Shown: one piece after another, positions 5,071 to 48,975 of the stretch
Layout of the letters: the number at the start of each line of letters is the position of its first letter
Numbering within the stretch: the first letter of the stretch is position 1
Origin: a virus
Direction: 5' to 3' (one strand)
Virus record (IMG/VR): IMGVR_UViG_3300025010_000028
Location: 62,001 to 126,000 of that record
Length of the DNA: 64,000 nt
Notes under the pieces: model-generated
Database searches by the model: none
The model's input: only the letters and a program-made list of their open reading frames with translations
What the model was told of the DNA's origin: nothing
Translations under genes and position numbers: made by a program

Positions 5071-5619
5071 ATGGCAAAAGTGACTAAAAGTTTTACAGAG
5101 GTATTTGAAGAAATTAAAAATGGTATTACCTTATCTAAAAAGGGTAAACCTATTGTTTCATTTAGTCGTGGTGACTTCGACAAATTAACCAAAGCATTTT
5201 TGAATGAAATCGACTATAAGGTTGAAAGTGTTTCAACCAAAGGTAATGAACTTGTAACTAAAGAAGTATTTCCAGTACAACTGTTCCGTAATATGATTAA
5301 AACAATTTTACTTGACTTCGGTGTTGATAAACAGGAAGCTCAGCGTATTGTTGAGTCGTATGAATTCAGAAATACTGATGGTTTGTATGAAGTATGCTCT
5401 GAACTCATTTATAAATATGTCGATGCCGGTAGGAAGTTTGACTTTATTCCTAAAGAAGATTTCAACGGTTCAATTGTTCTGAAGGATGTTTCTGAATTTG
5501 TTGGTCAATATACGAACATTCAAGATGGGCAAAAAATCAGTATTCGCAAAGAAGCTCATAAACTATTAAAAGCAAAGAGCAGATGTCCAAAAGGAAAAAA
5601 ACATAAAGTAAATGAATAA
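5071..5619 (+). CDS. Conserved phage protein, probably abundant
   Basis: 182 aa beginning MAKVTKSFTEVFEEIKNG, with a strong GGAGG ribosome-binding site. Base composition is visibly richer in G and C than its neighbours, the pattern of the well-expressed genes in this window (compare 10779 and the head-protein genes). The C-terminus is lysine-rich (CPKGKKHKVNE). It sits alone between a promoter-like motif and a strong terminator, so it is probably transcribed separately. It resembles conserved unannotated proteins of other Bacillota phages (from memory, not checked). A virion role is a guess. Confidence 0.7.
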   Translation: MAKVTKSFTEVFEEIKNGITLSKKGKPIVSFSRGDFDKLTKAFLNEIDYKVESVSTKGNELVTKEVFPVQLFRNMIKTILLDFGVDKQEAQRIVESYEFRNTDGLYEVCSELIYKYVDAGRKFDFIPKEDFNGSIVLKDVSEFVGQYTNIQDGQKISIRKEAHKLLKAKSRCPKGKKHKVNE

Positions 5620-5627
5620 TCTATAAA

Positions 5628-5663
5628 ATATAATGTAATGGATTAAATACCATTACATTATAT
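5628..5663 (+). terminator. Intrinsic terminator
   Basis: A 13-bp hairpin (TATAATGTAATGG and its complement) is followed by seven T. Confidence 0.85.
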
Positions 5664-5683
5664 TTTTTTATTTATAAAAAAAT

Positions 5684-5713
5684 AGAAATGGGGGTTAACC
5701 CATCTCCATTTTT
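5684..5713 (-). terminator. Terminator for the minus-strand gene
   Basis: A hairpin with the AAATGG/CCATTT arm and a GGGTTAACCC core is followed on the minus strand by CTATTTTTTT. It faces the preceding plus-strand terminator. Confidence 0.6.
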
Positions 5714-5738
5714 TAAAAAACCCATAATAATATTTTTT

Positions 5739-6068
5739 TTATTTTATAAATGAAACCACTTGAGGTTTCATTAAAGTTTTTAGGAATGTTATGAAAAACA
5801 GACCTAGAAAGCCTCCTTTCCTTGTATTGAGACTTTTTTCAATAGCTGGTTCGAATAACTGGTTCAAAAAGTGTTCACCGCCCTGTTGGATTTGATGTGG
5901 TCGAAACCGACTTATTAAGAAAGTCAATTCGCTATGACCAATAATAAATGTGTAATTGGTAACGGTTTCTACAATCAAGGGTCGGTATCCGATTAGGTAT
6001 CTACATCCCAAAGTCCCTTCATAACAATCCCATTTAACTAATTCTGTAAATCCTCGCTGTGGTTTCAT
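5739..6068 (-). CDS. Unknown protein (109 aa)
   Basis: An excellent AAGGAGGTGATAAAG ribosome-binding site precedes the ATG at 6068. The protein starts MKPQRGFTELVKWDCYEG and has a hydrophobic stretch near residues 88-100 (GLFFITFLKTLM). Base composition is clearly less AT-rich than its surroundings, which suggests high expression or recent acquisition. It is the promoter-distal gene of a three-gene minus-strand island in a plus-strand region. No family recognised. Confidence 0.6.
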   Translation of the reverse strand: MKPQRGFTELVKWDCYEGTLGCRYLIGYRPLIVETVTNYTFIIGHSELTFLISRFRPHQIQQGGEHFLNQLFEPAIEKSLNTRKGGFLGLFFITFLKTLMKPQVVSFIK

Positions 6069-7674: not shown

Positions 7675-9594
7675 TTGGACTTTAATATATTGTTAGAAAC
7701 TAAATTAAAATCTAAGGACCGAAAAAACCTATATTCGGAAGATTTTGGATTACCTGAAGATAGAAAATTCCCATTAATTGATGAGGAACATATACTTCAA
7801 GCTATTAGATTCTTTAGATATTGTCCTGCATCTAAAAAACTATTATTAGCTAATAATATAAATAAAAAAGCTAAAACTTACGGTTTAAAAATAAATATTA
7901 GTGAAAAGAACCCTTTTTATAAATTAGCTGATAAAAGTATAATAAAAGAATATGTTAATTACTCATCTGATGAATGTTCATTAACTGATATTGAGTTACC
8001 TGAGGAATTTTTAAATTATACTTCAACAAATAATTATTTTAAACAAATGATAAAAGAACTAAATACATTTATACCATCATCATTAGATGAATTTTATGAT
8101 TTTGAAAAAAAATTCTATGAAAATTTATATAAACCTTTTATAAATGATATTATAGTTAGTTCATTAAAAGATGATGCGATATATATTATACAAAGTTTAA
8201 ATAATTTTATTGAAAAAATATTATATGAAAGAGGATTTGAATATATATTATTTATAGGAGGAAAAGGGTTTAATCATATTGAATCAATCAGATTACAAAA
8301 AAGTATGATTGATGATTTTTGTTATATGATTGATAATGAAAACAATATTGAAGAAAATGAGAAATATTTATCATTATTAAAAGATATGTTAATACAAAAT
8401 TCAGATAATTTCTTTTTAGTTATAAGACGTATTTATTTATTATACATTGATGGATTAAAAGTAATTATTGAAATTGGTGTTAATAATGTGTCAAAAAATT
8501 CAATAAATCAAATTGAAATTTTAAATTCTTTATTAAAAGATTTTATTGATGATAAAAATTTAAGATGTGCTTATAAAAATCTTTATGTTTCTAGTGATAA
8601 TAGAGATATAGATTATGAGCAATTTTTAAATTTAAATATGAAAAATACTGAAGAATTTCTTAGGAAAAAATCGGTTGAATTAAAAGATTTATCTCGGTCT
8701 GCTGCAACTAAATTTAATCTTTCATTAGGTATTAACTTTTTTAATGATATGAGAGAATTCTTCTTACAAGAAATACCAAGACATAATAAAGAAATTTTAT
8801 CTATAATAGGTTATCTAGAAGGTTCCTTAAATCCAAAATTTATTAAATACTATGATAAAAATTATACACTAAAGTTAGATAGTATGGATTTATTATTTAT
8901 AAATAAATTAAAAGATATATTTACAGGGATATATAATTCCATAGATATAAATGGTGATATAATATATTATGGTATAGGTGAAAACCGTTTATATTTATTA
9001 GCTAAAAATAAAATTGATAATAATGAGATTATTTTAATAAAATTACATGATTCATCTGTAGATATTAATATATATTCCCTAGTAACATGTATTGTTAAAG
9101 ATTTAAAACCTATGGATATGACGATTGTGTATATGAATAAACAAGGTCTTGATAATTCATATAAAAATAAAATATTAACTGAAGGTATTTCTGTAGATGA
9201 AGATGGTATCAAATTTTATTTTAAACCAAGGAAATCTTATATGGATGATTATTCAGAAAATCATAAGTTATTAATTGAAAACTTTAAATCTAAAAATTAT
9301 GAAGCAATGAAACATAATTTAGCTTATTTATTTGCTTTAATAAATTCTATAGAAAGAGATGTGATATATAAGAAAAAAAATATTGATAATGAAAAACTAA
9401 AAGATGCTCAAAAAGCTAGAGCGTTTGCAATTAATGATTTTAAGACTTATTTAAAAGAAGTACAAAAGAATGAAAAAAGTTTTGATTTTACTAAATACTT
9501 TGAAAATGGTGGATATGATAAATTTGTTTATAATATAGATACAAAGTCTATATTAGGTGTAAAGAAACTATTTAAAATAATTATGTTTTCATAA
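7675..9594 (+). CDS. Phage protein with DUF6582-like N-terminal motif
   Basis: 639 aa from a TTG start behind AAAGGAGTGA. Residues 24-70 (FGLPEDRKFPLIDEEHIL followed by an AIRFF...KKLL...KKAKTYGL pattern) match the short motif often fused to phage head or scaffold proteins (DUF6582-like, from memory). The rest is helical, acidic and unassigned; there is no signal peptide. A strong terminator follows immediately. A virion-assembly role is plausible but not shown. Confidence 0.7.
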   Translation: MDFNILLETKLKSKDRKNLYSEDFGLPEDRKFPLIDEEHILQAIRFFRYCPASKKLLLANNINKKAKTYGLKINISEKNPFYKLADKSIIKEYVNYSSDECSLTDIELPEEFLNYTSTNNYFKQMIKELNTFIPSSLDEFYDFEKKFYENLYKPFINDIIVSSLKDDAIYIIQSLNNFIEKILYERGFEYILFIGGKGFNHIESIRLQKSMIDDFCYMIDNENNIEENEKYLSLLKDMLIQNSDNFFLVIRRIYLLYIDGLKVIIEIGVNNVSKNSINQIEILNSLLKDFIDDKNLRCAYKNLYVSSDNRDIDYEQFLNLNMKNTEEFLRKKSVELKDLSRSAATKFNLSLGINFFNDMREFFLQEIPRHNKEILSIIGYLEGSLNPKFIKYYDKNYTLKLDSMDLLFINKLKDIFTGIYNSIDINGDIIYYGIGENRLYLLAKNKIDNNEIILIKLHDSSVDINIYSLVTCIVKDLKPMDMTIVYMNKQGLDNSYKNKILTEGISVDEDGIKFYFKPRKSYMDDYSENHKLLIENFKSKNYEAMKHNLAYLFALINSIERDVIYKKKNIDNEKLKDAQKARAFAINDFKTYLKEVQKNEKSFDFTKYFENGGYDKFVYNIDTKSILGVKKLFKIIMFS

Positions 9595-32692: not shown

Positions 32693-35600
32693 TCATCTAC
32701 CTCTAGCTATTTTTTTAGCTGTAGTATAATCACGTTGTTCTTTATTATTACCAACACCATTTCCTTCATTTAAAGATTGAAAGAATGGACTAACAAATGT
32801 ATTTTTATGTTGTTGTGAATTTACATTGATATTATTAACTCGATCAGTATCACTTGTAGTGGGATTATTATTTACAGTAACTGTCATTTCTTTAGCAGCT
32901 ATTTCAGAAATACCTTTTGACGTTGTATTGGTATTTATTGCAATTTCCTTTAATACATTAACAATTTCATCCATTGATATATTTGAACTTTGTGTATTAC
33001 TACTAGTACTAATATAATCACCCATTCCACTATTTACACTTTCAAATATATTACGGTTATACTTAATTGCTTCACCTTTATATTTATTTGAGATAGATGT
33101 TGTTAAATCTCCTAGTCCGCCAGTAAATCTTTCTAAATTAACTTTATTATTAAGTATAATACTATTATCTTCACCAAAACCCCCAGGTAATGATTTTGAA
33201 TTACATGATAAACAAAAATCACCATTACCACCAAATTCAGGTTTCCATCCAGATAATTTAGAATAAGTATTGTTTATTCTATTAGCATATATTCCTTTAT
33301 TACCCCAATAACTCTTATTTTTAAATTCATTTAAAAAATGTTCAAATTCAGACATTCCACCGTTATTTGGATTGTATTTTTCTAAGAATGGTTTAATAAG
33401 AGCTGGTCCGGTATTAGCGAAATCAGCAAGAAATGCAATTGTTCTTGGATCTTTTATCTTATTAGTATCAACACCATATTTATATACTGGAGCCAAGTTC
33501 GTATCTCTAATATGAGATAGAGCCATTTCATTTTGAACTTTTTGACTTATACTCATATTATCACCAAGAAATTTTTTCAATCTTGCTCTTTGGCTATCAT
33601 TCCAGGGATTTTGATTACCCCAATCAACTTGATTAGCAAAATAATTAGCTTCACTATTACCAGGCAATTGTTCATACATTCTTTGCATTAATGATTTGGC
33701 ATTATTACCTCTCCACTGTAAAATACCTACAGATGGAGAAATTCTTCGTCCTGTAGATGCATTAGTATCATTATTAGAACTAGTATAATCACCTGATGAT
33801 TCTGAACCTATAGATAATTCTAAGGTTTTCTTTAAAATGACTTCTTGTAAATTCTTAGGAATAAAATTAGATAAACTACTTGATTCAGATGTTGATATTG
33901 AAACATTGAAATCATTACTAGTTCCTTCAATGTCATCCCATGATAATTTTTTATTTGTTCCAAGCATTACATTTTCGTTATATATTGTAAAAGCCTCTGA
34001 CATTTTGGTGAATAGATCCATTACAGATAATTGTTTTTGTTCAGAAATAATATTACTATTTGTTGATGAAACTATATTAGGGGGTAAAACTCCACCATTA
34101 TAACTAAAAGCCCACCCCTGTCTAGCTTCTTTAGTAATTTTATTAAAATCATATGGTTTAGAAAATTTAGAACCTCTAGGATCATTTATTAAAACATTAC
34201 CTTTATCATCTCTTCCAACGGCAACAACAAAGTGCCCACCAGGTGTAAATGGGGATTCATTTAATGAATAGGTATCTCTTTTACCTGATAGGATTACTGG
34301 CATACCTTTATTAATATAATTAAGCATATTTGAAGGGTTGATTGTTTCTTTATTTAAACTAAAGTCCCTAGCAACCCTATCAAAATAACCCCATGTTGTG
34401 CCGTCATTTGTACTATACCCACCCTCTTGAGCTAATTTAGCCATTTGGGGTGGTTCGTATTGTTTACCTGTTAATTGACTAACAACCATTGCCATAGAAG
34501 TTGGTCCACAACCTCTAGCAGATATTGTTGGGTGAACTGAATGACCTGAACTTAAATCATAAGTTGAATTACCCCATCTGTCATCATACTGTGAGTAATA
34601 TTTGAAATTATTAAGCTTATTTGGCTCTTCACCAAAACCACCATTTCCATTCCCACCTCTTCCACTAAAGAATGATGATGAACCATTGTATCCATCTTTA
34701 GAAAAATATTTTTTAATACCACTAATTTTATTATTTGCATAGTCAGATAGAGATAAATTATTACCATCTTTATCTTTAAATCCTAGTAATTCACCTAACC
34801 AATTATCTAAACTTTCAAATGCTTTTGGGAGTTTCTCAGTTAATTCTTTCCATTTCTTTTCAGTAAATGCTTTTGTGTTATCCCAATAAAATTTAGCACC
34901 ATCAGCAATTTCTTTCCAACTATCTCTAATACCTTTTATAATTCCCTTAAAACCTATATTAAATCCTTCTGTAAAACTAACGTCATTTCCTTCTTCATCT
35001 TTATATCCAAATAATTTACCTAAAGTATTATTAGTATCAGTTAAAGATTTAGAAACAAAACCTTTCATATTAACCCACTGCTTATTACTATTTTCTTGTA
35101 AATCTTCCCAATTTTTAGATAAACTATTCTTAATTGTTTTCAACCGTTCATTTGTATTAAAAAATGCTCCAGAAATATCATTACCCATCATATTAAAACC
35201 TCTACTAAAACCTCCTTTAAAACTATCCCAATTCTTAGATAAACTAGTGCCAATGTTATGTCCTGTTCTTAAAGCAAAATTTTTACCTACATTCCATTGT
35301 TTTTTACTATCATCCCAATTTTTAGATAAAAAATCTTTAGTTTTAGACAAAGGATTACTGATAAATTTCTGGAAGAAAGTTTTATTTTGCCTATCGTTAT
35401 AAGCATTTAAAGATAACTCAGTACCATTCTCTTCATTATATTTATTCTTATCATCTTCAAATACCTTTTTATTTAATTCTAATTTATTTAATTCTTCAGA
35501 TGAAGCTAATGTTGAATAAATTGTTGTAGCAACATATTGTTTTAAACTCATACCGGTTTGTTCATTAAATATTTCTGATATTATATCTATTACAGGAAAG

Positions 35601-38600
35601 AATCCTATTAATGATTTAGTTATAGATGAGGCTATTCTCATTTTTTCATCAACTGATTCATTTCTAACTCTAAATATTCTAGATGCTTCATATGCACCTG
35701 TAGCTAAATCCCATGTTATTATTACTGGAGCTGCAAATACAATGGCACCTGTTCTTAAAAAAGCTTTTGATAATTTACCCATATGATTAATTATAGTTTT
35801 ATAATTAAATACTTTAGTAACAACCCCTATTATTTTACTAGCTATTTTTGATGCAGATGAACCCAATTTTTCTCTAACAAATGCATTATTAAAGAATTTC
35901 TCAAAAGTATTTTTAATAGCTTGAATAATTTTATTAGAATCATTGACAGTAACTTCTCTAACAATTCTACCAGTATCATCAATAACTCTAAAAGAAGCAT
36001 CAATTACTCCAGTTCTACCTGATGAAAAGAATTTATTTTTTAAATCTGAGCTATACTTACTAATATTTTTTACGATACTAGAATTTACAAACTTATCTTT
36101 ACCTTTACTTAAAGACTCTAAAATTTTTGGTCCATTTCTTCTAATTAAAATACCAGAACCTTTAATATAACTTTCTCTACCTTGAGCATTTATAATTTTT
36201 TTAGTTGCTACTCCATTTTCATCCACATCATTTCGACTAGTATCATTTTTTTCTATTAAACCTAAAGCCTTATCAACAATTCCAGAATTGGAACCACCAA
36301 AAGGAAAATTATTTTTAACCCATTGAATAATATCTTTCAAAAAAGGTAATGCTAATAATAATGCTGTTGTTAAAGCACCTTTAACCCCAAATATTGATAA
36401 CCAGCTGTCATAATGACCTTTAGATGTATCAGCAATGTTTTGTAGTAATGAGGTTTGTCTTATTTCATTATTTCTAGTAAATTCTTTCTCATTTCTTAAA
36501 GTATTTTGAGCTATTAAAAACCCTGATGTTTTCCTAGAAACTTGTAATTGATTTTGATATAATTCTTTTTGTCTATCTTTTTCAGCTTGTTTATTATTTT
36601 CTTCTTCATCATTTTGTGTATCAAATATATCAAGTGCATTTATTAAAGATGATGTTAAATAATTACCATTATTCCCTATATTATTTAAACCTGGAATATT
36701 TGATGAACTAATTCTACGTTGATTTTGATTTGTATTCATATTAAAATAAACTGGAACAGGTTTATCTAAACCAACAATTCTAACTGAAGTAATTCCATCT
36801 ACTCTAACTGGTATAACTATATTATCTGAATTATTAAATAAATTATTTCTATTACTTTTTGGACTTTGTGTAAAATCAGAGCTGGTATCTCCAATTTTCT
36901 TAACCACATCAATAATACCACCTGTAATATACATTTCCGATCTATTAACACCTACAGCTCTACCAAGCATATCCGCTGCAAATCTAAGTGGTGAAGTTGC
37001 TATACTAAATAAAGATTTAGTAACACTTGTTAATAAACTACCAACATTTTTAATTATACCAAATCCAAAATCCATAATCATTTTACTGGAAGTTAATAAG
37101 AAGTCTCCTACAACTGGAACTATATTCATTATACTTTTAGTAAAAGCAGATAAAGTTGAGCCAATAACCTCACCAATACTAAAAGCAACTTGACCTATTC
37201 CTTTACCAACACCTATCATTGCTTCGCTAACCATTCCCATTGCACCTGAGAATAATTTAGCTACACCTTTAAGAGTTTCTCCAATAGCAGGTACTACCAT
37301 TTTTAATGATTCAGCAAATATTTTTGTAGTTTGAGCAAATAAATTTAATAATTGTCCTGGTAATTTAACTATAGTAAGAAACGTTTCTTTACCAATTGAT
37401 AATATTTCAGAACCTATATTATACATAGTTGAAAATATTTGTTTAGGTATAGTAACTAATATTGTTTTACTAAAATCAAATATTTTTTTACCAACAGAAG
37501 TAATTTTATCAGTTACAAATTGAATAGATCCCATAACTTTCTCTTTAATAGTGTCTATAGGTTTATATAGCATTCTTCTTACTTTACCAAAGAATCCAAC
37601 TCTATCTCTATTTGAACTTCCACTTAAATCTTCGTCACTTATACCCTGTTGAGACTGAATTAATTTTCTTATTTTATAAACATTACCACCGACACCATCT
37701 AATTGACCATTAACTTCTTTAGCAATAGTTCTTACATCACCTGCTATTTGTATTATTAATTCATCTTTTGATTTAATTCTACGTGTAGATGTTTTTTTAG
37801 TAGGTTGTTGACTTTGACTAATAGTTGGTTGTATTATAGATGTGTCTTGAGTTTGTTGTTGATTAATAATGGGTTGATTTATAGATGAAGTTGTTGTTGA
37901 TTTTTTACCCCTTCTTCTACTACCATTTCTGTTATTTATAACATTAGTAACATCATCAACAATTGTTGTATCACCTTGTTGAACTGAACCAGGTAATATT
38001 ATTACACTTTGGTCATTTACAGGTTTAGGATTAGGTCTACCTCTTCTCCTTCTGCCAGTTCTACTATTTATATTATAAGTAGTATCATTAATTGGATTTG
38101 AGGTCATTTGTTCAACTCTTCGTTCTTCTGGAGATAAATATTGTTCTCTAACAACTTTTCCATCAGGACTAAAATTATCATAATTATTATTAATACCGGC
38201 TCTTTTTCTATCTTTCCACGCACTCCACATTTTTCTTATATCTTCTCTTTTAGCACCAAATTCAACATTAGCTTCATCTTCTCTTCTTTGTCTATCAATT
38301 TCCAATTGTCTAGCATATGGAGCACCTTGACTACTATTTCTAGCGTTATCTCTAGCTTGTCTATTAAAATAAATGTCTTTAAATTTCTTTAATCCACCAA
38401 AGAAACCTATTTTTTCCCCACGTTGTCTTCTACCTTTAAAATCAAGTAGATCGTTCCAACCTTCTTCAACATAAGCATCTAAACCAGCTTGCATATGTTT
38501 TTTTGTCAAACCTCTTGATAGCCCCTCCATTCCTTTAAATGGAGCGGATACAATACTACCAACTATTCTACCAATACCACCTAATATTTTTGACATGAAA

Positions 38601-41600
38601 CCTCTTAATGGTTTCATAACCTTATCTTCCATAAATTTACCAAAAGGCATACCTACATGTTTTTCAAATACATCACCGATAAAAATTTTAAAACTAGTCC
38701 AACCTTCTACAAAATTATCTTTTAAACTTCTTATCATTAATTTTATTTCATGTTTAATTGGATCAATTGCATTAAGAAATGGATTAGCTATACTTCTTGT
38801 AAACCATTCTTTAACATTTAGATTTATTTCTTGTAATTTTATTTTAATAGGTTGAACTACTTCTAAATTAGTCCAATTAATAACTTTACCTAATAAACCA
38901 CCTTTTCTCAATTGAGTTTCATCATCAAATTCACCAAACAACATTTTCTTCCATTTCTCAGATGATAAAGCTATACCGGCAGCAGCTCCTAATAAAGCTC
39001 CACCTAATGGTCCACCAGGTAATAAAGCGGCACCTAATAAACCAAATTTGCTTGTAATTAACCCTATACTAGCTCCACCTAATATACCAGCACTAACATT
39101 ACCAAACATTTTTTTAGCTTTAGTTTTATCAACTTTACCAAATATTTTTTGAGCTATACCTCCAAGTCTATTTCCGTCTGCTTGTAAATCACCAAACATA
39201 AATTTCTTAAATTTTTCTGAACTAGCTAACATTGATATACTCGCACCAAATAATGCACCACCAATAGGACCACCGGGTAAAAAGAATGATGGTAAAAATC
39301 CAAATCCTAATATAGATTTAAGAGCTCCTAAACTTGCACCACCAATAATACCTACCTTATTCTTTTTAAAGAACTCTTGAGTTTTCTTGTTAATAAAACC
39401 ACCAATATGATTATTATTAATATCTTTAGGACCAAATAACCAATCTTTAAATCTATCCGATTGTGATAGAAAACCAACTGTGGTACCAACAATAGCTCCA
39501 CCAATAGGACCACCGGGTAAAAATAATGAACCTAATAAACCTAACTTACCACCCATTAACAACCCACTACCGGCTCCGAGAATGCCAAAAGACAATGCTT
39601 TAGGTAATCTTTCTTTAAACTTTTTAAATAAGTCTCCAACTATCAAATAGTTTTTATTATCTTTTCCACCAATTTTTCGTGGACCAAAAATAGCATCTGA
39701 AAAATTTTGAAAACCATCTTTTATACTATTAACAGCTGATGAAAGAACTCCTGTTTCTTGTATATTACCATCTTGTGATCTTCTACCAAATAAATAAGAT
39801 TTTATAGTATCTTTAAAACCACCAAACATTGACTTTAATTCACCAAATACACTTTTATTATTACTAGGAAAAGAAACACCAGATCTATTTATATAAGCTC
39901 TACCAGTAAAATAATATTTAGCACCATCAAAAATATCTAAAAGATTATTTGCTGTGTCTGAAAATATCCCACCTTTTCTTTTACCAGTAGAATCCTTTAA
40001 CCCAAATAAAAAATCTGTTAATTTACCAAAATTAGATTTAATCCCTTTAAAAAAATCAGAATCTTTTAATTTAGTTATAAACCCATTAGGACCAAATAAA
40101 GATTCTCTAATAGGTGTAAATATTTTATCTTTAAACCATTCAGACATTGTTTGAAACTTACTTTGCATCAATGCCCATGTTCTACTAAGAAAAGATGTGG
40201 TACCACCACCTTCTTCATCACCAAAAATTATTTTAAACATACTATCATCTATTTTTTTAAATACAGTATTAAGTAATTTAGCTGGAGTATTAAAAATATC
40301 TCTTACTTTTTCTCTTAATAAATTATATTTAGTTTGCATATCACCAGATATAAAACTACTTAACCAACCACTTTGTTGTCGTCTATCTCGTTCAGAATCA
40401 CTTCTTCTTTGTTCATCAAATATTCTAATTTGGTCTCTCATTTCTTCAGGAGAAATATCTGAATCTGATAATCTATTTAAAATTCTTCTTCCTTGTTGTC
40501 TATTTATTCTTTCCAACTCAGGTGTAATTTCAGTATCTTGTTGTTTTTTTACTTTAAATTTTCTATCTCTTTCTCTTCTTTCAGTTTCCATCCTCCTTAA
40601 TTGTCTCTCATGATAGTTAAAATTAGGTTGGGTTATTGTTCCATCCGGATTAATTAATTGAGTTATTGGAAAGACTTTAATACCCTTTAATAGAATTTCT
40701 TTAATATCACGTAAATAATCTAAATCAATTTTATTGAATTGATCTGTTTTGGATAAAACACCAAAACCTTTCTTTACTTCAAATTGACCTCGATTATATT
40801 TATTTCTTTTAATATGGTCATCAAAATTTAATTGATTATTAACTAAAGCAGCATTATATCTTAGTGGATTTGTTTCAGCTTCATTAAATATTTTTTCTTT
40901 ATTTTTTCTAGCGTTTAATACATCAGTACCAAACATTTTTTGTATATCACCTTTATCAAGTGATAATACTAACTGTCTGAAGAAATTATTCATTTCTTCA
41001 CTACCAAAATCATGAACATCTTTTAATTCATTTATATTAACACCATTTCTATCTTTAGTTCTTACTGGATTTATTAATTTATTTAAACCTGGTAACTTTA
41101 AGAAAAAAGTCTCTAGGTCTTTATTAAATTTTTTTCTTTCCTCATCATTTTGAATATTAAAAGCATTAGCTTTATCTTTTATTTCACTTATAACATCTGA
41201 AAAACTACTTAGAATACTTCTATTCATAGTGCTTTGAAAATCTTTTTGCATAGAATCCATAGATTTAAAAACACCATTATCATAATCAAAAGCAACTTCT
41301 TCTTTACCATTTAATGCAGCTAATATTTTTCTTAAATATCCTGGTATAACTTCTGTAATAGATTTCTTTGTATATCCATCAAAAGGAACTGCACCCTTTT
41401 CATATTGAGATAAATCAACAGATGATTTTTGTTTTACATTTATACCAAAAACCTGACCTAAAAAATTAAGTATAGGGTTTTGAGAACCAATCATTCTATT
41501 AGCTTTCATTAATAAAGCTGGAAAGAAATTCTCAAAACTTTTATTCATACTAGTTAAAGTTTGTTTTAACATAGAAGGAATAAATGCAGATACTATTTTA

Positions 41601-42565
41601 GTGGATAGAAAACTTATAGGTGAAGCAGCTAAAAATTTTAATTGATCTTTATCTGATAACATATATTTTAGTTGAGACAATATCATATCTTGATCTACAG
41701 CTGCACCAAATTGTCTTTTAATTAAATTAGCATAACCGGATATATTTAGTCCACCTTTAGATAAAAAGACTGAATCCATGGGATCGACTTTTTCTTTAAC
41801 AATCTTTTCTTCTGAAACCCCTTTTTTCATTTCACTATGAATATTATTAAATAGATTTAAACTTTCTTCATAGTATTTAAAAGTAGTGCTTATATATCTA
41901 GTCATTGATTCACTTTGGAAGTTAACAAGTAGACTTAGATTATCATTTATAGCACTTAAACCTCTATTTAAATCTTCTCCAAGTTTTCTATTTATCATCA
42001 TATGATTAGTAGCTAAGGATATAGATATTTTATCACTAGCTTGAGTTGTATTATATAAAGCTTCGGTTTGTCTTTCTACTGCTTTAACCATAGGATTATT
42101 TTTATTTATATTGGAAGAAACTACAACTCTATTAACAGTAGGTGAACTACTAGAATCAGACATTGTTTCTGATGATACTTTATAATCATCATTATCAATA
42201 TTTAAATCATCACCAAATTCAAAATCAATATCATCATTAAATATTTCTTCCTGTCTACCTTTATTATAAATTTTACCCGATTTAATATCTTTTAAAGCAT
42301 TTTTTATTGCTGTTTGACCTATATTAATATATTCATTCTTTACTATCTGATCTGATAATTTTTTACTTAAAGATTTACTTTGTCTTAAATCATTATAAAA
42401 GTTTTTAAATGTTTCTGTGTTACTTTTAATAAAATCTATTGGGGCTGGAATCATTTCTTCAATTAATTCAGTTGTAGTATAACCTAAAGATTTTCCAACA
42501 TTTTTAAACCAACTTAAAGCTGTAGGTGATTTAGTCTTAATCTTAGTTCTATTTTTTATTGCCAT
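32693..42565 (-). CDS. Giant tape-measure protein with C39 peptidase and lysozyme-like domains
   Basis: 3,290 aa. The long alternating helical and hydrophobic architecture is that of a tail tape measure. Three glycine-rich repeats of about 81 residues lie near 990-1210, each with an (F/L)LPGGP(I/L)GGA core and (S)(D/E)(K/R)(F/W)K..(L/M)FG end. Near 2645-2815 is a C39-like papain-fold peptidase (Cys in ARGCGPTS, His in GGHFVVAVG, Asp in INDPRGS). Near 2915-3065 is a phage-tail lysozyme domain (SESSGDYT, SVGILQW). The enzymatic tip would open the cell wall during ejection. By the usual 0.15 nm per residue, the tail could approach 490 nm. Confidence 0.9.
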   Translation of the reverse strand: MAIKNRTKIKTKSPTALSWFKNVGKSLGYTTTELIEEMIPAPIDFIKSNTETFKNFYNDLRQSKSLSKKLSDQIVKNEYINIGQTAIKNALKDIKSGKIYNKGRQEEIFNDDIDFEFGDDLNIDNDDYKVSSETMSDSSSSPTVNRVVVSSNINKNNPMVKAVERQTEALYNTTQASDKISISLATNHMMINRKLGEDLNRGLSAINDNLSLLVNFQSESMTRYISTTFKYYEESLNLFNNIHSEMKKGVSEEKIVKEKVDPMDSVFLSKGGLNISGYANLIKRQFGAAVDQDMILSQLKYMLSDKDQLKFLAASPISFLSTKIVSAFIPSMLKQTLTSMNKSFENFFPALLMKANRMIGSQNPILNFLGQVFGINVKQKSSVDLSQYEKGAVPFDGYTKKSITEVIPGYLRKILAALNGKEEVAFDYDNGVFKSMDSMQKDFQSTMNRSILSSFSDVISEIKDKANAFNIQNDEERKKFNKDLETFFLKLPGLNKLINPVRTKDRNGVNINELKDVHDFGSEEMNNFFRQLVLSLDKGDIQKMFGTDVLNARKNKEKIFNEAETNPLRYNAALVNNQLNFDDHIKRNKYNRGQFEVKKGFGVLSKTDQFNKIDLDYLRDIKEILLKGIKVFPITQLINPDGTITQPNFNYHERQLRRMETERRERDRKFKVKKQQDTEITPELERINRQQGRRILNRLSDSDISPEEMRDQIRIFDEQRRSDSERDRRQQSGWLSSFISGDMQTKYNLLREKVRDIFNTPAKLLNTVFKKIDDSMFKIIFGDEEGGGTTSFLSRTWALMQSKFQTMSEWFKDKIFTPIRESLFGPNGFITKLKDSDFFKGIKSNFGKLTDFLFGLKDSTGKRKGGIFSDTANNLLDIFDGAKYYFTGRAYINRSGVSFPSNNKSVFGELKSMFGGFKDTIKSYLFGRRSQDGNIQETGVLSSAVNSIKDGFQNFSDAIFGPRKIGGKDNKNYLIVGDLFKKFKERLPKALSFGILGAGSGLLMGGKLGLLGSLFLPGGPIGGAIVGTTVGFLSQSDRFKDWLFGPKDINNNHIGGFINKKTQEFFKKNKVGIIGGASLGALKSILGFGFLPSFFLPGGPIGGALFGASISMLASSEKFKKFMFGDLQADGNRLGGIAQKIFGKVDKTKAKKMFGNVSAGILGGASIGLITSKFGLLGAALLPGGPLGGALLGAAAGIALSSEKWKKMLFGEFDDETQLRKGGLLGKVINWTNLEVVQPIKIKLQEINLNVKEWFTRSIANPFLNAIDPIKHEIKLMIRSLKDNFVEGWTSFKIFIGDVFEKHVGMPFGKFMEDKVMKPLRGFMSKILGGIGRIVGSIVSAPFKGMEGLSRGLTKKHMQAGLDAYVEEGWNDLLDFKGRRQRGEKIGFFGGLKKFKDIYFNRQARDNARNSSQGAPYARQLEIDRQRREDEANVEFGAKREDIRKMWSAWKDRKRAGINNNYDNFSPDGKVVREQYLSPEERRVEQMTSNPINDTTYNINSRTGRRRRGRPNPKPVNDQSVIILPGSVQQGDTTIVDDVTNVINNRNGSRRRGKKSTTTSSINQPIINQQQTQDTSIIQPTISQSQQPTKKTSTRRIKSKDELIIQIAGDVRTIAKEVNGQLDGVGGNVYKIRKLIQSQQGISDEDLSGSSNRDRVGFFGKVRRMLYKPIDTIKEKVMGSIQFVTDKITSVGKKIFDFSKTILVTIPKQIFSTMYNIGSEILSIGKETFLTIVKLPGQLLNLFAQTTKIFAESLKMVVPAIGETLKGVAKLFSGAMGMVSEAMIGVGKGIGQVAFSIGEVIGSTLSAFTKSIMNIVPVVGDFLLTSSKMIMDFGFGIIKNVGSLLTSVTKSLFSIATSPLRFAADMLGRAVGVNRSEMYITGGIIDVVKKIGDTSSDFTQSPKSNRNNLFNNSDNIVIPVRVDGITSVRIVGLDKPVPVYFNMNTNQNQRRISSSNIPGLNNIGNNGNYLTSSLINALDIFDTQNDEEENNKQAEKDRQKELYQNQLQVSRKTSGFLIAQNTLRNEKEFTRNNEIRQTSLLQNIADTSKGHYDSWLSIFGVKGALTTALLLALPFLKDIIQWVKNNFPFGGSNSGIVDKALGLIEKNDTSRNDVDENGVATKKIINAQGRESYIKGSGILIRRNGPKILESLSKGKDKFVNSSIVKNISKYSSDLKNKFFSSGRTGVIDASFRVIDDTGRIVREVTVNDSNKIIQAIKNTFEKFFNNAFVREKLGSSASKIASKIIGVVTKVFNYKTIINHMGKLSKAFLRTGAIVFAAPVIITWDLATGAYEASRIFRVRNESVDEKMRIASSITKSLIGFFPVIDIISEIFNEQTGMSLKQYVATTIYSTLASSEELNKLELNKKVFEDDKNKYNEENGTELSLNAYNDRQNKTFFQKFISNPLSKTKDFLSKNWDDSKKQWNVGKNFALRTGHNIGTSLSKNWDSFKGGFSRGFNMMGNDISGAFFNTNERLKTIKNSLSKNWEDLQENSNKQWVNMKGFVSKSLTDTNNTLGKLFGYKDEEGNDVSFTEGFNIGFKGIIKGIRDSWKEIADGAKFYWDNTKAFTEKKWKELTEKLPKAFESLDNWLGELLGFKDKDGNNLSLSDYANNKISGIKKYFSKDGYNGSSSFFSGRGGNGNGGFGEEPNKLNNFKYYSQYDDRWGNSTYDLSSGHSVHPTISARGCGPTSMAMVVSQLTGKQYEPPQMAKLAQEGGYSTNDGTTWGYFDRVARDFSLNKETINPSNMLNYINKGMPVILSGKRDTYSLNESPFTPGGHFVVAVGRDDKGNVLINDPRGSKFSKPYDFNKITKEARQGWAFSYNGGVLPPNIVSSTNSNIISEQKQLSVMDLFTKMSEAFTIYNENVMLGTNKKLSWDDIEGTSNDFNVSISTSESSSLSNFIPKNLQEVILKKTLELSIGSESSGDYTSSNNDTNASTGRRISPSVGILQWRGNNAKSLMQRMYEQLPGNSEANYFANQVDWGNQNPWNDSQRARLKKFLGDNMSISQKVQNEMALSHIRDTNLAPVYKYGVDTNKIKDPRTIAFLADFANTGPALIKPFLEKYNPNNGGMSEFEHFLNEFKNKSYWGNKGIYANRINNTYSKLSGWKPEFGGNGDFCLSCNSKSLPGGFGEDNSIILNNKVNLERFTGGLGDLTTSISNKYKGEAIKYNRNIFESVNSGMGDYISTSSNTQSSNISMDEIVNVLKEIAINTNTTSKGISEIAAKEMTVTVNNNPTTSDTDRVNNINVNSQQHKNTFVSPFFQSLNEGNGVGNNKEQRDYTTAKKIARGR

Positions 42566-42958: not shown

Positions 42959-43903
42959 TTATTCTTCATAGACGTCTTTTAATTTCCTTTTTAATTCTAT
43001 TAATACCTTATTACCAAACATTGACAATATAACAGATGGAGTCATTCTATTCATTACTGCTCCTGGGGCAACTACTGAAGATACTTCTTCATCCGGTCTA
43101 AATAAAGAATATGGCTCATATCCCTCAGGTATAACTTCACCGGAAATAGATTTTAATGCAGTAAAGAAACATATTTTATCTCCAACACCAACTGTATCTT
43201 TATATTTAATATAAAATATTATTAAAACCCCTGAATTAACAGTATGACCTTTAACTTTACCATCTTTACTTTCAATCTTACCAACAGGTTCATTTACCAT
43301 TATACCACATTTATAAACAGAGTCACTTTTATCATATTTATTAAGAACTTTTTTCTTCCTATTAATTCTGTCATAATAATCGTTAACAATCTTTTTTAAT
43401 GTAGGAGATAATTCTTCAATATCTACAGTTGAATATACTTTAATATCTTCAATTACACCTGAGTGTTTAGTTTTAATAGGTGTCTTACCCATTGCTTTAA
43501 TCTCTTCTTTTAACTCGTCTCCAACATTTGAAAGAAATTTATTTAATGAATCATCTTTAAATGAAATTTCAAATCTAATTAGCTCATCCCCAACACTAAC
43601 ATTTTGACCTATTTCAACTATATAGTCAACATTAGCATTTTTACCTAAAGTAACTGGTTTTTCCATAACAATATATGTTGCCATATCTTCACTTAATTTT
43701 TTACTAACAAACGTAGAATCTTCATATGTTGAATAAGAGGACATACAGGCTATTTTCTGCAATGAACCAATATTAAATCTATTACCATATAATTTATTAT
43801 TACTAAAAAAATTACTATCATAAGCCAATATATCTTTTTTCTTTATTTTTTGCCCTAATTTCAAATCACATGATAACTTATTTGATAAAAAGAAACCTCC
43901 GGC
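42959..43903 (-). CDS. rpoB-like: RNA polymerase beta subunit, exon 3
   Basis: 314 codons. The first bases restore the frame AGGFFLSNKLS after exon 2's KNG. Beta signatures: RFNIGSLQKIACMSSYSTYED (bacterial beta has vA.m.w.GyneED), IKTKHSGVIEDIKVYS, VGVGDKICFF and APGAVMNRMTPSVIL (the 'P.gv.sRMn.gq' clamp segment). The bacterial GRHGNKG active-site loop after GDK is not conserved, as in divergent phage polymerases. A reading frame starting at TTG 43864 is not a real start. Confidence 0.85.
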   Translation of the reverse strand, partial: AGGFFLSNKLSCDLKLGQKIKKKDILAYDSNFFSNNKLYGNRFNIGSLQKIACMSSYSTYEDSTFVSKKLSEDMATYIVMEKPVTLGKNANVDYIVEIGQNVSVGDELIRFEISFKDDSLNKFLSNVGDELKEEIKAMGKTPIKTKHSGVIEDIKVYSTVDIEELSPTLKKIVNDYYDRINRKKKVLNKYDKSDSVYKCGIMVNEPVGKIESKDGKVKGHTVNSGVLIIFYIKYKDTVGVGDKICFFTALKSISGEVIPEGYEPYSLFRPDEEVSSVVAPGAVMNRMTPSVILSMFGNKVLIELKRKLKDVYEE

Positions 43904-45025
43904 CGTAAAAATTCACATAGGTCGTTAATCTATGCAGTTCTCTTATGAACTTCCCTATATTTCTATAGGATACTAGACTATATCTTCATCTCATAAAGAT
44001 ACTTCCTATTTCGATTTAAGGGACTTTCACCCACCTACTTAGGCCCTACTCCTGTTGCTTATTTCAAAGCTAAAGGATAGTCGTTGAACTTTAATCAATA
44101 TACGCATTTCCATCTTTTATATTACGATATATGTCTCTATTATTAGAATTATTTCTAATTAATAAAATTCTACATATATCATTAAACGAATAATTTCTTA
44201 ATATTAATTCTTTCATTTCATTTATTTTTTTATAAGATTTTAATTTTCTTTTACCATTCGAACTATAAGAATCATTCCAAAAATAATTTTTACTAATATG
44301 TGCCCATGATATCCTTTTTCTTATTCTATATAAAGAAGCTCGTATATTTTTATTATCGTTTAATTTTAATTCTTTTATTATTTCAGAATAAGAATATTCG
44401 TGTTGAAGCATTTGACATATTTTATGAATTTCTTTATTACTGAAAATAGAATTATGACATTCTTCACCTTTATGAATTAAACCATTTTCTTTTGCGTGTT
44501 TATTATTAGCTGCATTACTAACCCACTTTAGATTATTAACATTATTATTAATTTTATCTTTTTTACTTTTTACATTTTTATGATTTACAGTATTATTAAT
44601 TTCACTTTTTTGAAATTTTAAAAAAGTATTTGCTACTAAAACATGTATTCTGTATTTTTTAATTCTTTTTTCTACTGTTTTTAACATAACTTGAACATAA
44701 CCTTTTTTATCAATATGACCTTTTAATATTTTACCATTTTCTTTATTAATAATATTACCATAAAAACTTATTTGATATATAGATAATATTATATCATAAT
44801 TTAAATCAACCCAAAACTCTTTATTACCACAAAAGACATATAACATATTTTTTCCTCCTTTCTTTTAATAGTTTTATCATAGTTAACGTATATTAATTAT
44901 TAGCTGCGGATCACCCAATCCTAAAACATTATTACTAATAATTTAGTAGTTTTAGGCTCTAAGAGCTTCCCCGACAATTAAAGAAGATTCACTTATATGT
45001 CACCATATAAATGGGCATTTAGTTT
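43904..45025 (-). ncRNA. Group I intron 2 (1,122 bp) in RNA polymerase beta gene
   Basis: On the minus strand it has AATTGTCGGGGAAGCTC near the 5' end, GATCCGCAGC (P4-P6), TTCAACGACTATCC and GAAGATATAGTCT (the two P7 strands), and a terminal G at 43904. Splicing AATGGT to GCCGGA gives KNG-AGGFFLSNK, in frame. P1 is imperfect (exon AAUGGU with intron GCCCAUU needs a bulge). It carries the HNH endonuclease gene. Confidence 0.85.
44091..44846 (-). CDS. Intron-encoded HNH homing endonuclease
   Basis: 251 aa with AAAGGAGG before the ATG. The N-terminal NUMOD4-like part (GKILKGHIDKKGYVQVMLK) leads to RIHVLVANTFL and a compact HNH core (NTVNHKNVKSKKDKINNNV then NNLKWVS and NNKHA). Two helix-turn-helix-like C-terminal repeats (EIHKICQMLQ..YSYSEIIKEL; EMKELILRNYSFNDICRIL) probably bind DNA. 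It would cut intronless alleles to spread intron 2. The stop lies right before the P7 strand. Confidence 0.9.
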   Translation of the reverse strand: MLYVFCGNKEFWVDLNYDIILSIYQISFYGNIINKENGKILKGHIDKKGYVQVMLKTVEKRIKKYRIHVLVANTFLKFQKSEINNTVNHKNVKSKKDKINNNVNNLKWVSNAANNKHAKENGLIHKGEECHNSIFSNKEIHKICQMLQHEYSYSEIIKELKLNDNKNIRASLYRIRKRISWAHISKNYFWNDSYSSNGKRKLKSYKKINEMKELILRNYSFNDICRILLIRNNSNNRDIYRNIKDGNAYID

Positions 45026-45277
45026 ACCATTTTTTACTACTCTTGGACTTGTATCAATTGCTTTCGTTTCACCATTTTTATATTTAATAATAACTAAACC
45101 AGTTTCTTTATTTATTTCAACGACTTCACCATCATCTTTAGCTACAACTGTAAAGTCGTCTGACAAATGATAATGAATAACTTGTTCAACTCCATTGGAT
45201 AATAAAACTGGTGATTGTTTTATTACTGGAACTATATGTTTTGATTGTTTTACACTCATCGCTGTTCTTATGCTATC
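45026..45277 (-). CDS. rpoB-like: RNA polymerase beta subunit, exon 2
   Basis: 84 codons, exactly in frame with both neighbours. It encodes DSIRTAMSVKQSKHIVPVIK, the beta segment that in bacterial RpoB reads 'Gs.MqrqavP', then GVEQVIHYHLSDDFTVVAKDD, matching 'tG.E......s...v.A...G.V'. The exon ends at KNG. The piece alone (with an ATG at 45259) looks like a gene but is only an exon. Confidence 0.85.
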
Positions 45278-45452
45278 CAGAAACCACCTATGATTTCCAT
45301 AAGTGACAGACTATATCATCATCTTCACCATTACGTGTTTAGATGCTCTCCGTTTGGGGTTTCCCCTACTCTACTCACTTCTGTTTATTAAATAATAAAC
45401 ATGCTTTCGATAGTCTTTGAACCTTTCTCATAGTATAATTTTATTTTTCATT

Positions 45453-45463
45453 TATATATTATT
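45453..45463 (+). promoter_or_regulatory. TATATATTATT motif for antisense intron gene
   Basis: It lies 32 nt before the ATG at 45496, inside intron 1, on the strand opposite to the polymerase gene. Confidence 0.5.
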
Positions 45464-45495
45464 TATATAATATAAAAAAGAAAGGAATGATTTTT

Positions 45496-45831
45496 ATGTC
45501 AGTTACCTACAAAGATATTTTAATGAATGGTATCAAAGAATTAGATCCAGATTGTATCTCCAAAGAATCTATAGAAATAACTAAAAAGTTCTTTGAACAA
45601 AGATTCACCAATGACTTAAAGCAATATAACAATAACGAAGAAAGAGCAACAGATGAATTTGTTACTCGTAAAAATTTAGAACTTTTTAGATATTATATCG
45701 AAGAAACCTTCTTATTATATGATGAATTATATGATGGTACTGGAGAAATACATAAATTATATATTAGAAGAGAACTTCGTGATATCCATAACTATCTTTG
45801 TCATGTAATAAAAGGTAAAGAATATTGTTAA
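45496..45831 (+). CDS. Unknown protein encoded antisense inside group I intron 1
   Basis: 111 aa. The ATG at 45496 is 9 nt after AAAGGA; the ATG at 45487 abuts it. The protein (MSVTYKDILMNGIKELDPD...) is helical and acidic, with RRELRDIHNYLCHVIKG near the end. It has none of the homing-endonuclease motifs (HNH, GIY-YIG, LAGLIDADG). Own promoter-like motif and terminator make it a complete cassette opposite to the intron. Confidence 0.7.
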   Translation: MSVTYKDILMNGIKELDPDCISKESIEITKKFFEQRFTNDLKQYNNNEERATDEFVTRKNLELFRYYIEETFLLYDELYDGTGEIHKLYIRRELRDIHNYLCHVIKGKEYC

Positions 45832-45840
45832 AATTAATTT

Positions 45841-45868
45841 AAAAGAGTTATAATTTTTAACTCTTTTT
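45841..45868 (+). terminator. Terminator of antisense intron gene
   Basis: AAAAGAGTTA and TAACTCTTTT arms, followed by a T-rich run. Confidence 0.75.
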
Positions 45869-46056
45869 ATTTTTTTATACTATGAGACTTGGCTGCGGAT
45901 TACCCAATCTCTTATCTTGTTACCATACCTTAATTGATTAGATTAAGCCATTATATTATTACTAATATAATTTGGTAATAAGAGCAATAAGGATGTCCCC
46001 GACAATTAGAAGAGTTTTTAACTATATATTTCTATATAGTGGGACAATAGCAACTC

Positions 46057-48975
46057 ATCCCGTGTATTTCCTAAAGGAGACAATAATTCAGCTGGAGAAA
46101 ATAAATTCACATCTTTTAATTTATCAAGTCTATCATCATTTATATCAATATACCCTCTTGGATTTTTTATATTGGGTTCTAAGGTTAATTGTCTGGTTAC
46201 ACCACATGAAGAATCTGGTGAAGTTGACATTGCTAAAATACCTAACATTGTTTTATCATATGACCTTTTATCTTGTGTATAGGCTTCATCCAAGTTCATA
46301 CCTGAATGACCTTTTGGTGTAATAACTCTTGATTTCTCAACTTCAACAATAGGATTTAATGTGCTGTAGTCTTCCACGGTCTGTGCAACCAGTAATTTTT
46401 TAATAATGATATCTTGAGGTACAGATATTTTAACCGGATTATTATTTAAAGAAGTAGTTCTATATTTAATATAAGCGTTAGCAACTTCTTTATATATTAA
46501 AGCATTAACTAATTCATTTGATCTTATTCTATAAAGATTCATATTATTCTCTTTAATATACGAATTAGTTGCCAATAATGAATTTGCATATAGAACTAAA
46601 GAAACATAATCAGTTGGATAATTTAAATCTTGTAACACTTCTCTTGTAATAGGATCAATTAAAAATTCATATGAATTAAGAAAAGCATTACCAATTATTC
46701 TACTATTATAAAGAGTATCAAATAAAGATAAATAAACATCTTTTGAATCAAATTCACTATATTCAAAAGTTTTAGTAGGAATATCGGCAAATGCATTCAT
46801 TAATAAAGAGTTTTCAAATGGATACTTATCATAAATTAAGTACCCATCACTAAATTGAATTATTCCCTCATTACTAGTTATGTCTTTAGGTCTCTTATCT
46901 GAAAAGTAATGTTTTATATTAGCTTTCTTTATTACTGTAGATAAACCTTCTAGAAATGAAATTAATAAAATTACAGGGACATGTTTTTGCATTATATAAG
47001 CTCTAGTATATACGAATTTTTTACCACTTTTAATATCATCAAAATCTTGTACTAAACCTTGAGTCAACATAGAAAGTATATAACCAACTATATCAAAAGA
47101 TGTACCGATTCTTTGAGTATTTATATCAACTATAATAGGTATTGGTGTTTTACCATTATCATGAAAACCTATTAATAATTCATTTTCATTAAGTTTTATT
47201 TTTTTATCTGTAATCATATTAATAACATCATCTTGATTAAAATAAAATTCAGTTTTACCTATACGAATATAAGTAAAGCTTTTAGATAATTCATCATATT
47301 CTATAGTAGTATTATATTTATTATTACTAGATAAATTATTACCATATTTAACTTTAATACCTTCTTTTTGTTCATATAATAATTTTCTCATTTTTTCTAT
47401 TTTAGATGATATTTTAGTACCATAACGTCTAATAAACATCTTATTATAATTAGTACAAATTTGTACTTCGTCAGGACCTGTTTTAACAACAGGTTTCATA
47501 AATAATTGCTTCATAATAATCTTTTTATTTCCACCTAAATATAGAAATTTATCATCTATAAATTTAGGTACATCGAATTTTAATTTATGTCTAACTCTAT
47601 TTTCATCTTCTAATTCAAAGGTATATGTTTCTTTTAAATTTAATTCATCAGAAGAATCAATGTGTTCTATGTTCCTGATGTAAACTGGAATAGATTTTTC
47701 ATTTAAAAACTTTATATTATTAAGTAAATCTTTTTCATGAAGAACTTCATTATATGCCTTTTCAAAATGAGGATATCTTATAGTAGTTATATTTTTATTA
47801 GTAGTATTAACTTTATCAGAAACATCAAATTTAGGAATATCGAGTTGTTCTTTATTAGTAGTTTCATATATATTATCTATATATATTCCCATTTTATCTT
47901 CTATTATTTCTTTCTGCTTATTTCTTAATTCTTCATCCCTTTTAATAGAAGCTGTACTTCTACCAACTTTTTTCTCCTGATTCAACATATGAATTTTTTT
48001 TATAATTTCATTATCATTAATAATAGTAGATGAAACTTTATTATATATTTCTTCACTATTAGAATCATCTAATTTATTAGCATCAATTATTTCATCAACT
48101 TTTTCTTCAATACTATTTTCAAATTCATCATCTTGTTCAGTTTTATTATCACCAATAAATCTATGTTGGTCATTAAGATATCCTATCATTTTATCTGCAA
48201 TTTCTTTTCTTTTTAATATTTTTTCAATATTTTCTTCATCCATATCCAATAAACTTTTAGGAGATGATTTCATAATCTCTTTCTTAAATAATGAATATGA
48301 ATTTTTATCACATAATGATGGATTTAATCTTAATACACTATCATTAGTATAAAAGATAATATTAATATTTCCTAATTCTATAAATTTATCAAAATATTTA
48401 TACATACAGTAATAAATAATAAATATAGGATTATCAAAATTTAATTTACCTTTTATTTGGGTTCCCACGTCGTTAATCCAACTATTAATATCAATACAAA
48501 TTGTTTTATATTTGTATTGATTAAAATGACTATTATTAATTAAGTTATCTAAATAACTTATATAATTTTTAATTCTAACTCCAAAATTAACTTTCTTACT
48601 TAATTCAAAAAATAAAGTATTATGTTTTATTAAATCAACATATATATTTTTTTTATTTACTGATGGTAAATCTGTAACTGTTTGTATAAATCTAACTTGT
48701 TTTTCTATATTAGTATAAATATCAGTTCTTTCTTTACGGTATAAAATCCTAAATGTTCTATTAAATAATTTACCACTATAAATTTGGTCCATAAAATAAA
48801 AATGATACATACTACTATTTTTAATAAATTCATGTTTTAATAACTCTATAGAAGATTCTATAGTATTATTATTGATAAAAACAACACTATTAATACTAGG
48901 GTATTTTTCATCTTTAGGTAGTAAAACTTTTTGTTTATAAGTCTTAAGATGAGGTATATCTGAAATAAAAATCAA
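46057..48975 (-). CDS. rpoB-like: RNA polymerase beta subunit, exon 1
   Basis: 973 codons from a TTG at 48975 (GGTGA 7 nt upstream). The first 330 residues are divergent with an acidic linker. From about 400, beta features appear: a DDKFLYLGGNKKIIMKQLFM block ('GgyFIvnG.EkVi.Q'), KPVVKTGPDEV, and near the end VITPKGHSGMNLDEA and SPDSSCGVTRQLTLEP (rifampicin-pocket/fork region 'd.s.Gv.R.Ltl'), then SPLGNTRD at the splice site. The 12 codons beyond the splice site are intronic. The joined product is about 1,371 aa. No beta' gene is in the window. Confidence 0.85.

Follow-up and report, generated by a model that had tools for sequence, protein, structure and literature searches.

The 64,000-nucleotide stretch of DNA analyzed here (the window) is part of the 187-kb virus record G000, an AR9/PBS1-like jumbo phage. 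Its minus strand carries an RNA polymerase beta gene that is split into three pieces, identified by their matches to the PHROG RNA polymerase beta families, as follows: exon 1 at 46057-48975 (TTG start as listed), exon 2 at 45020-45277 (3' end approximate) and exon 3 at 42959-43836 (5' end approximate). The closest annotated relatives of this gene include those of AR9, PBS1 and jumbo phages of Staphylococcus and Listeria, at 33-35% identity. Directly downstream of the beta gene, at 32693-42565 on the minus strand, is the gene for a 3290-aa protein with a Peptidase_C39-like domain (residues 2653-2796), which is probably a large virion protein. Exons 1 and 2 are separated by intron 1, which occupies 779 nt at 45278-46056 between the 5' splice site CGGGAT^GAGTTG and the end ...TTTCTG^GATAGC. 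Its excision (46056-45278) fuses CGGGAT with GATAGC and so gives ...GNTRD|DSIRTAMSVKQSKHIVPV... (GNTRD + DSIRTAMSVKQ), and the intronless relative L005 carries the same beta stretch without interruption (...IHDDSIRTAMASKQSKHIIPV... / DDSIRTAMASKQ). The intron boundaries are thus exact, since the spliced product matches the uninterrupted L005 sequence.

To which class does this intron belong? Its ends are those of a group I intron: the reading frame is restored by excision, a U closes the 5' exon and a G closes the intron. The Rfam group I model finds no match on intron 1 itself, either at the gathering score over the whole window or at E up to 5 over 43500-46500 (the only Rfam match from these searches is a chance snoRNA), probably due to its 471-nt P6 loop. 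A related stretch has an empty intron at this site, L004:8912-9257, which matches Rfam RF00028 at 61 bits (cut-off 50), and the flanks around the insert in intron 1 are 86-88% identical to it; intron 1 is called group I because of this homology. The group I intron of the original prediction is thus correctly placed to the base by its splice join, and its class is carried by the L004 homologue. When the whole intron is folded, the minimum free energy structure (z -5.0 against 20 shuffles) contains a stem, CTCATAGTATAA/TTATACTATGAG, that shuts off the insert and that we assign to P6 by comparison with other introns. Its arm on the 5' side of the intron RNA, CTCATAGTATAA, lies at 45875-45886 at the base of the insert, and the arm on the 3' side that pairs with it, TTATACTATGAG, at 45427-45438 (both minus strand); the same arms close an empty P6 in L039 and L040. 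L004 also has two beta-gene group I introns separated by about 20 nt of exon (9257-9300, GATAGCATAAGAACAGCGAT), an exon that would need splicing from both sides.

The P6 loop of intron 1 holds a plus-strand cassette, antisense to the intron, that consists of a putative early-promoter core, a ribosome-binding site, a 111-aa open reading frame and an AT-rich terminator. The frame with its stop codon lies at 45496-45831. An upstream ATG at 45487 would give a 114-aa version (45487-45831), and the frames of the relatives described below open at the position corresponding to the second ATG (45496). The ribosome-binding site AGAAAGGA (45479-45486) is kept in all four distinct sequences. Downstream of the frame, a hairpin followed by a T-run (45841-45876, plus strand) resembles an intrinsic terminator, with a folding energy of -9.4 kcal/mol and z -2.47; a stock terminator scan that requires three G-C pairs did not list this AT-rich hairpin. 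A hairpin with a T-run also lies 3' of the gene in the L001, L003 and L004 copies. It is retained with base changes in L001 and L003, and in L004 a different hairpin takes its place, whose fold is no better than that of shuffled sequences (z -1.1). All of the parts that the original prediction gave to the opposite strand, the frame and its own motif, ribosome-binding site and terminator, could thus be located by sequence.

The putative early-promoter core, TATATATTAT (45453-45462, plus strand), is of the type found in phage AR9 and is the core of the early consensus that the available part of PMC5312081 gives, AAATATATATTAT-6N-G with the G at +1. The window contains 19 copies of TATATATTAT against 5.9 expected, and 11 of them, including that of the cassette, are 20-140 nt upstream of one of 55 gene starts; random placement put a mean of 1.1 and a maximum of 6 copies before genes (5000 trials). 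The cassette promoter deviates from the AR9 consensus in having ATT for AAA before the core and, beyond the 6-nt spacer, A in place of G. In AR9 one deviation accompanied silence of a predicted early promoter (same excerpt of PMC5312081), and the A after the spacer is present in six of the 11 gene-linked window copies, again including that of the cassette. Before the beta gene itself there are three copies of AACA-6N-TA/G within 250 nt; we dropped a late-promoter reading of these, since the motif is too short to carry meaning.

The predicted protein had no match above chance in Pfam, PHROGs, PADLOC or NCBIfam; the lowest E-value, 0.0093, came from a PADLOC model whose role is unknown, matched by one member. 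None of the homing-endonuclease domains (HNH, GIY-YIG, LAGLIDADG, His-Cys, PD-(D/E)xK or VSR) was detected with these four collections, in agreement with the original prediction of a frame that has no endonuclease motif, and by this comparison the protein is outside the recognized homing-endonuclease families. The neighboring HNH gene in the window was recognized by both Pfam and PHROGs. The isoelectric point is 5.2-5.8 in three of the four copies and 7.7 in L004, compared with 9.8 for the window HNH protein, and such acidic to near-neutral values argue, though not decisively, against a nuclease or an RNA-binding helper. The structure prediction that had been proposed with the original prediction gave four helices but no significant structural relative: AlphaFold run with four sequences reached moderate confidence (mean pLDDT 75.8, pTM 0.71), a sequence-profile search of the PDB found nothing under E 0.6, Foldseek searches of the PDB and BFVD found no match at E <=0.001, and the best VIA score (Z 7.8, YqeY) is not significant for a helical bundle. 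An all-helical protein is therefore a firmer prediction than any fold assignment. Two specific candidates were considered and found no support. S23/IVP and Avd are related proteins; PF05635 matches none of the four proteins (E up to 5) and nothing in G000 or G004 (E up to 10), and the VIA scores for Avd (4dwl, 8ub7) and for 2gsc, Z 4.6-4.7, are background for helical bundles. HEPN ribonucleases carry an R-X(4-6)-H motif; an R-X5/6-H is present at residues 94/95-101 in three of the four sequences and is absent from L004.

A protein search of IMG/VR returned homologues in L001, L002 and L003 at 76-78% identity, and a profile search added the L004 copy, which had first been noticed in the list of open reading frames of L004. 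L001 and L002 encode identical proteins, so there are four distinct sequences overall in five records with one cassette each, that of the window included; the record of L005 has no copy. By contig name all of the relatives come from two metagenomes. The frame, whose lack of conservation had been named as grounds for abandoning the original prediction, is open in every copy found. No free-standing homologue outside introns was found in IMG/VR, in 50,697 phage records or in a bacterial and archaeal genome collection: tblastn in the phage records, AR9 and PBS1 included, gave one chance match (E 3), and a profile search of the bacterial and archaeal collection gave 150 pattern matches and no relatives. 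The cassette is antisense and at the tip of P6 in all copies, in an intron of a DNA polymerase gene in L001 and L002 (a label given, for the L001 gene, by sequence inspection), in beta intron 2 in L003 and L004, and in beta intron 1 in the window. These orientations are not independent observations, because the block travels with its flanks. A collection-wide search with a DNA pattern for the promoter block found it in only four records, all already known, and a pattern for the P6 arm found eight stretches, of which four contain the cassette and in the other four P6 is an empty hairpin; the exact empty tip, CTCATAGTAT-TACTATGAG, occurs in two records, L039 and L040.

The antisense frame bears a clear signature of coding selection. 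Among the window, L001 and L003 copies dN/dS is 0.161-0.228, and the differences between the window and L001 fall mostly at third codon positions (17/9/28 by position). Comparisons of L004 with the others give dN/dS of 0.25-0.49 at dS of 1.1-2.0, where such values are unreliable. We also made a census of P6 loops in 29 pairs of conserved core blocks, in stretches chosen around Rfam matches and with the AR9 row left out (L021, L030 and L032 have no core-block pair in it). Nineteen of the 29 loops are empty (25-38 nt), four hold the antisense cassette, four have an HNH-like frame of 138-251 aa on the sense strand, and two (L019 and L026) are long and contain only decayed HNH sequence; two more pairs in G000, outside the census, also have empty loops. 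The L019 (G000:35000-39000) and L026 (G004:47000-54500) loops, 844 and 748 nt long, are HNH-like by tblastn and have no frame of more than 52 aa, and so by sequence are decayed homing genes. Intron genes thus decay in these phages and the antisense gene has not, as is seen from these HNH remnants against the intact cassette frames. At E up to 1 the Rfam group I model has 10 matches in the 187-kb G000 and 19 in the 250-kb G004, some of which are halves of one intron.

The cassette and the introns that hold it have different histories. The DNA of the window cassette is 84-85% identical to that of L001 (DNA polymerase intron) and L003 (beta intron 2), and the 3' core of the window intron shares 97.1% identity with L004_I1a, the empty intron at the corresponding site, versus 73.6-76.9% with the three cassette-bearing introns. 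The 5' core of window intron 1 is 86.5% identical to the second L004 intron and 78.7% to the same-site intron; the intron is thus a mosaic on its 5' side too, since this core is closer to the second L004 intron than to the first. The breakpoints are in the conserved core blocks that flank P6. As read from these alignments, the cassette is mobile independently of its intron and has been exchanged between different genes and between introns whose core types differ. The DNA polymerase site is found in three forms: G004 is intronless there, G000 carries an empty intron, and L001 has the cassette intron (5476-5748). In beta intron 2 the P6 loop of the window holds a sense-strand NUMOD4/HNH endonuclease gene (44091-44846, minus strand; Pfam and PHROGs); in L003 and L004 this place is taken by the cassette, and the 3' cores of these introns are 90.6-91.3% identical. 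The suggestion that the gene is cargo in a safe site, standing where an endonuclease would be, is supported by this alternation, in which either of the two may have come first. The coding slot itself also varies: L003 and L004 are 96.2% identical in exon 3 (aa) and 96.5% in the aligned promoter-to-RBS region (nt), and their cassette proteins are 44.4% identical (aa). By this comparison the slot has been replaced or has diverged fast while its surroundings remained constant.

What, then, is this gene doing in an intron? Sequence comparison shows it to be conserved as a coding unit, and all of the copies that were found run antisense to their introns; we put at about even the chances that it is a mobile, early-expressed accessory gene, probably of conflict, parked in introns as a self-contained antisense cassette at the tip of P6. 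Early in infection the antisense gene would be transcribed by the injected RNA polymerase of the virion, and the beta gene would follow late if it behaves as in AR9, the source of this timing; the interrupted L001 gene, DNA polymerase, is possibly not a late one. The predicted transcript, about 408 nt (45469-45876), would extend two bases into a P6 arm and otherwise be complementary to the loop only. The opposite strand, the cassette's own promoter and terminator and the P6 stem could together permit expression with neither ribosomes nor antisense RNA in the ribozyme core; in this way the gene would avoid two difficulties known for genes in introns, the disturbance of the ribozyme by ribosomes and of splicing by antisense RNA. 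The protein may be accessory cargo whose early action is directed at the host or at a rival phage; this is the least certain step and the weak link of the explanation. It is suggested by a coding sequence that has been replaced or diversified while the promoter, P6 arms, intron and exons remained nearly constant. A conflict gene of the accessory kind would agree with the swapped slot, the early promoter and the small size, and residence only in introns fits a mobility factor as well; the lack of free-standing homologues speaks against ordinary cargo, for which they would be expected. A broader version, in which the tip of P6 is a conserved antisense docking slot with fixed promoter, ribosome-binding site and terminator, into which early conflict proteins are swapped, so that insertion is harmless and spread between genomes possible, seems to us conceivable but rather doubtful.

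The same residence in introns, with every copy found there and none outside, is what would be expected of an undescribed intron-mobility factor, a non-canonical endonuclease or a recombination helper in a selfish homing element that is antisense by chance. The polymorphism among no intron, empty intron and cassette intron at one DNA polymerase site and the HNH genes at the same place in sister introns agree with this. Against it are the lack of any endonuclease-family match in Pfam, PHROGs, PADLOC and NCBIfam, the all-alpha prediction (HNH, GIY-YIG, LAGLIDADG and PD-(D/E)xK folds are unlike all-alpha proteins) and the low pI of three of the four copies relative to the HNH protein (5.2-5.8, L004 7.7, versus 9.8), and we think this explanation unlikely. 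Could the protein instead be a maturase-like splicing helper, made before the intron-bearing genes are transcribed and acting in trans on the many introns of these phages? One copy is present in each of the intron-rich G000 (10 Rfam matches) and G004 (19), exclusively in introns, but G005 has five intron matches and no copy, and the phage records, AR9 and PBS1 included, contain no homologue even though in AR9 the beta gene is split into six pieces and includes an intron gene. In addition, three copies are acidic and do not look like RNA-binding proteins, and 56% of residues differ between the proteins of L003 and L004, whose introns are 94-95% identical. We regard a splicing helper as distinctly improbable.

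It had also been proposed that the antisense RNA interferes with folding or splicing of the polymerase pre-mRNA and so regulates the beta gene. An early promoter would yield such an RNA, and cyanophage S-PM2 offers a precedent in the antisense RNA CfrI, which spans psbA and a homing endonuclease gene (PMC2984593). This idea is weakened by the terminator, which would confine the transcript to the P6 loop with no complementarity to the catalytic core or splice sites, by selection on the coding sequence, and by the presence of the same cassette in different introns and in an unrelated host gene; its likely purpose is something other than control of splicing, and we give such regulation little credence, slightly less than a splicing helper. 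A chance frame or functionless decaying remnant, a concern in AT-rich DNA that is rich in short frames, is contradicted by the codon-level comparison (dN/dS 0.16-0.23), by the intact state of every copy with promoter and terminator conserved, and by the HNH decay in sister introns, which shows what neglect looks like, and is very improbable.

How does a parked antisense accessory gene, the reading we prefer, compare with known intron genes? The closest likeness is in slime moulds, where the homing endonuclease genes I-DirII (Didymium iridis) and I-DsqI (D. squamulosum) are antisense in nuclear group I introns, in a peripheral stem and with their own promoter, and antisense interference is thought to be avoided by keeping two transcripts or polymerases apart (excerpts of PMC9548176 and PMC3073962). 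The phage gene likewise lies opposite the ribozyme strand with a promoter of its own, the latter recognized by sequence only. The slime-mould genes are in eukaryotic rDNA, encode His-Cys endonucleases and rely on separation of RNA polymerases I and II in space; in contrast, the phage cassette is in protein-coding host genes, has no endonuclease match and would probably be separated in time by two phage RNA polymerases. In AR9 itself, g190 has its own early promoter in an intron of the late gene g189 (excerpt of PMC5312081), and the beta gene of NC_031039 encloses a gene for an HNH endonuclease, which we infer to be g190 under shifted numbering; unlike the cassette it is on the sense strand and encodes an HNH endonuclease. 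T4 intron genes are also expressed at another time than their host genes, but from the sense strand, with middle or late promoters and hairpins that hide the ribosome-binding site, and this same-strand timing keeps ribosomes from disturbing the ribozyme (available part of PMC2988022). A jumbo-phage intron gene that acts in conflict is known from PhiPA3, where an endonuclease in an RNA polymerase-subunit intron acts against PhiKZ, although the weapon there is a homing endonuclease (excerpt of PMC12908238). The S23/IVP proteins of 23S rRNA intervening sequences are small four-helix proteins inside a removable insert (excerpt of PMC4990558), but they lack a sequence match, their structural scores (with Avd) are background, and the rRNA insert is cut by RNase III rather than self-splicing.

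The accessible portions of the open-licence literature on antisense or non-endonuclease intron genes gave no example of a gene that lies antisense in a group I intron of a phage. In the available part of a survey of Bastillevirinae introns the loop proteins are listed as endonucleases, with one group lacking a detectable domain, and the words 'antisense' and 'opposite' do not occur (PMC11878797). Phage intron genes are generally taken to be sense-strand homing endonucleases, and a mobile antisense gene under selection differs from this picture; to judge from its distribution the mobile antisense cassette is more general than an oddity of one intron, and its closest precedent is in eukaryotic rDNA. 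Its signals would separate the antisense gene from the gene that it interrupts both in time and by strand. If its expression is confirmed, it would be the phage counterpart of the slime-mould antisense intron genes, two phage RNA polymerases could use opposite strands of one locus at different times, and whether introns bear cargo that is useful to the phage, and not only to themselves, would become testable. The cassette suggests that introns in these phages may serve as moveable parking places for genes beyond DNA-cutting enzymes.
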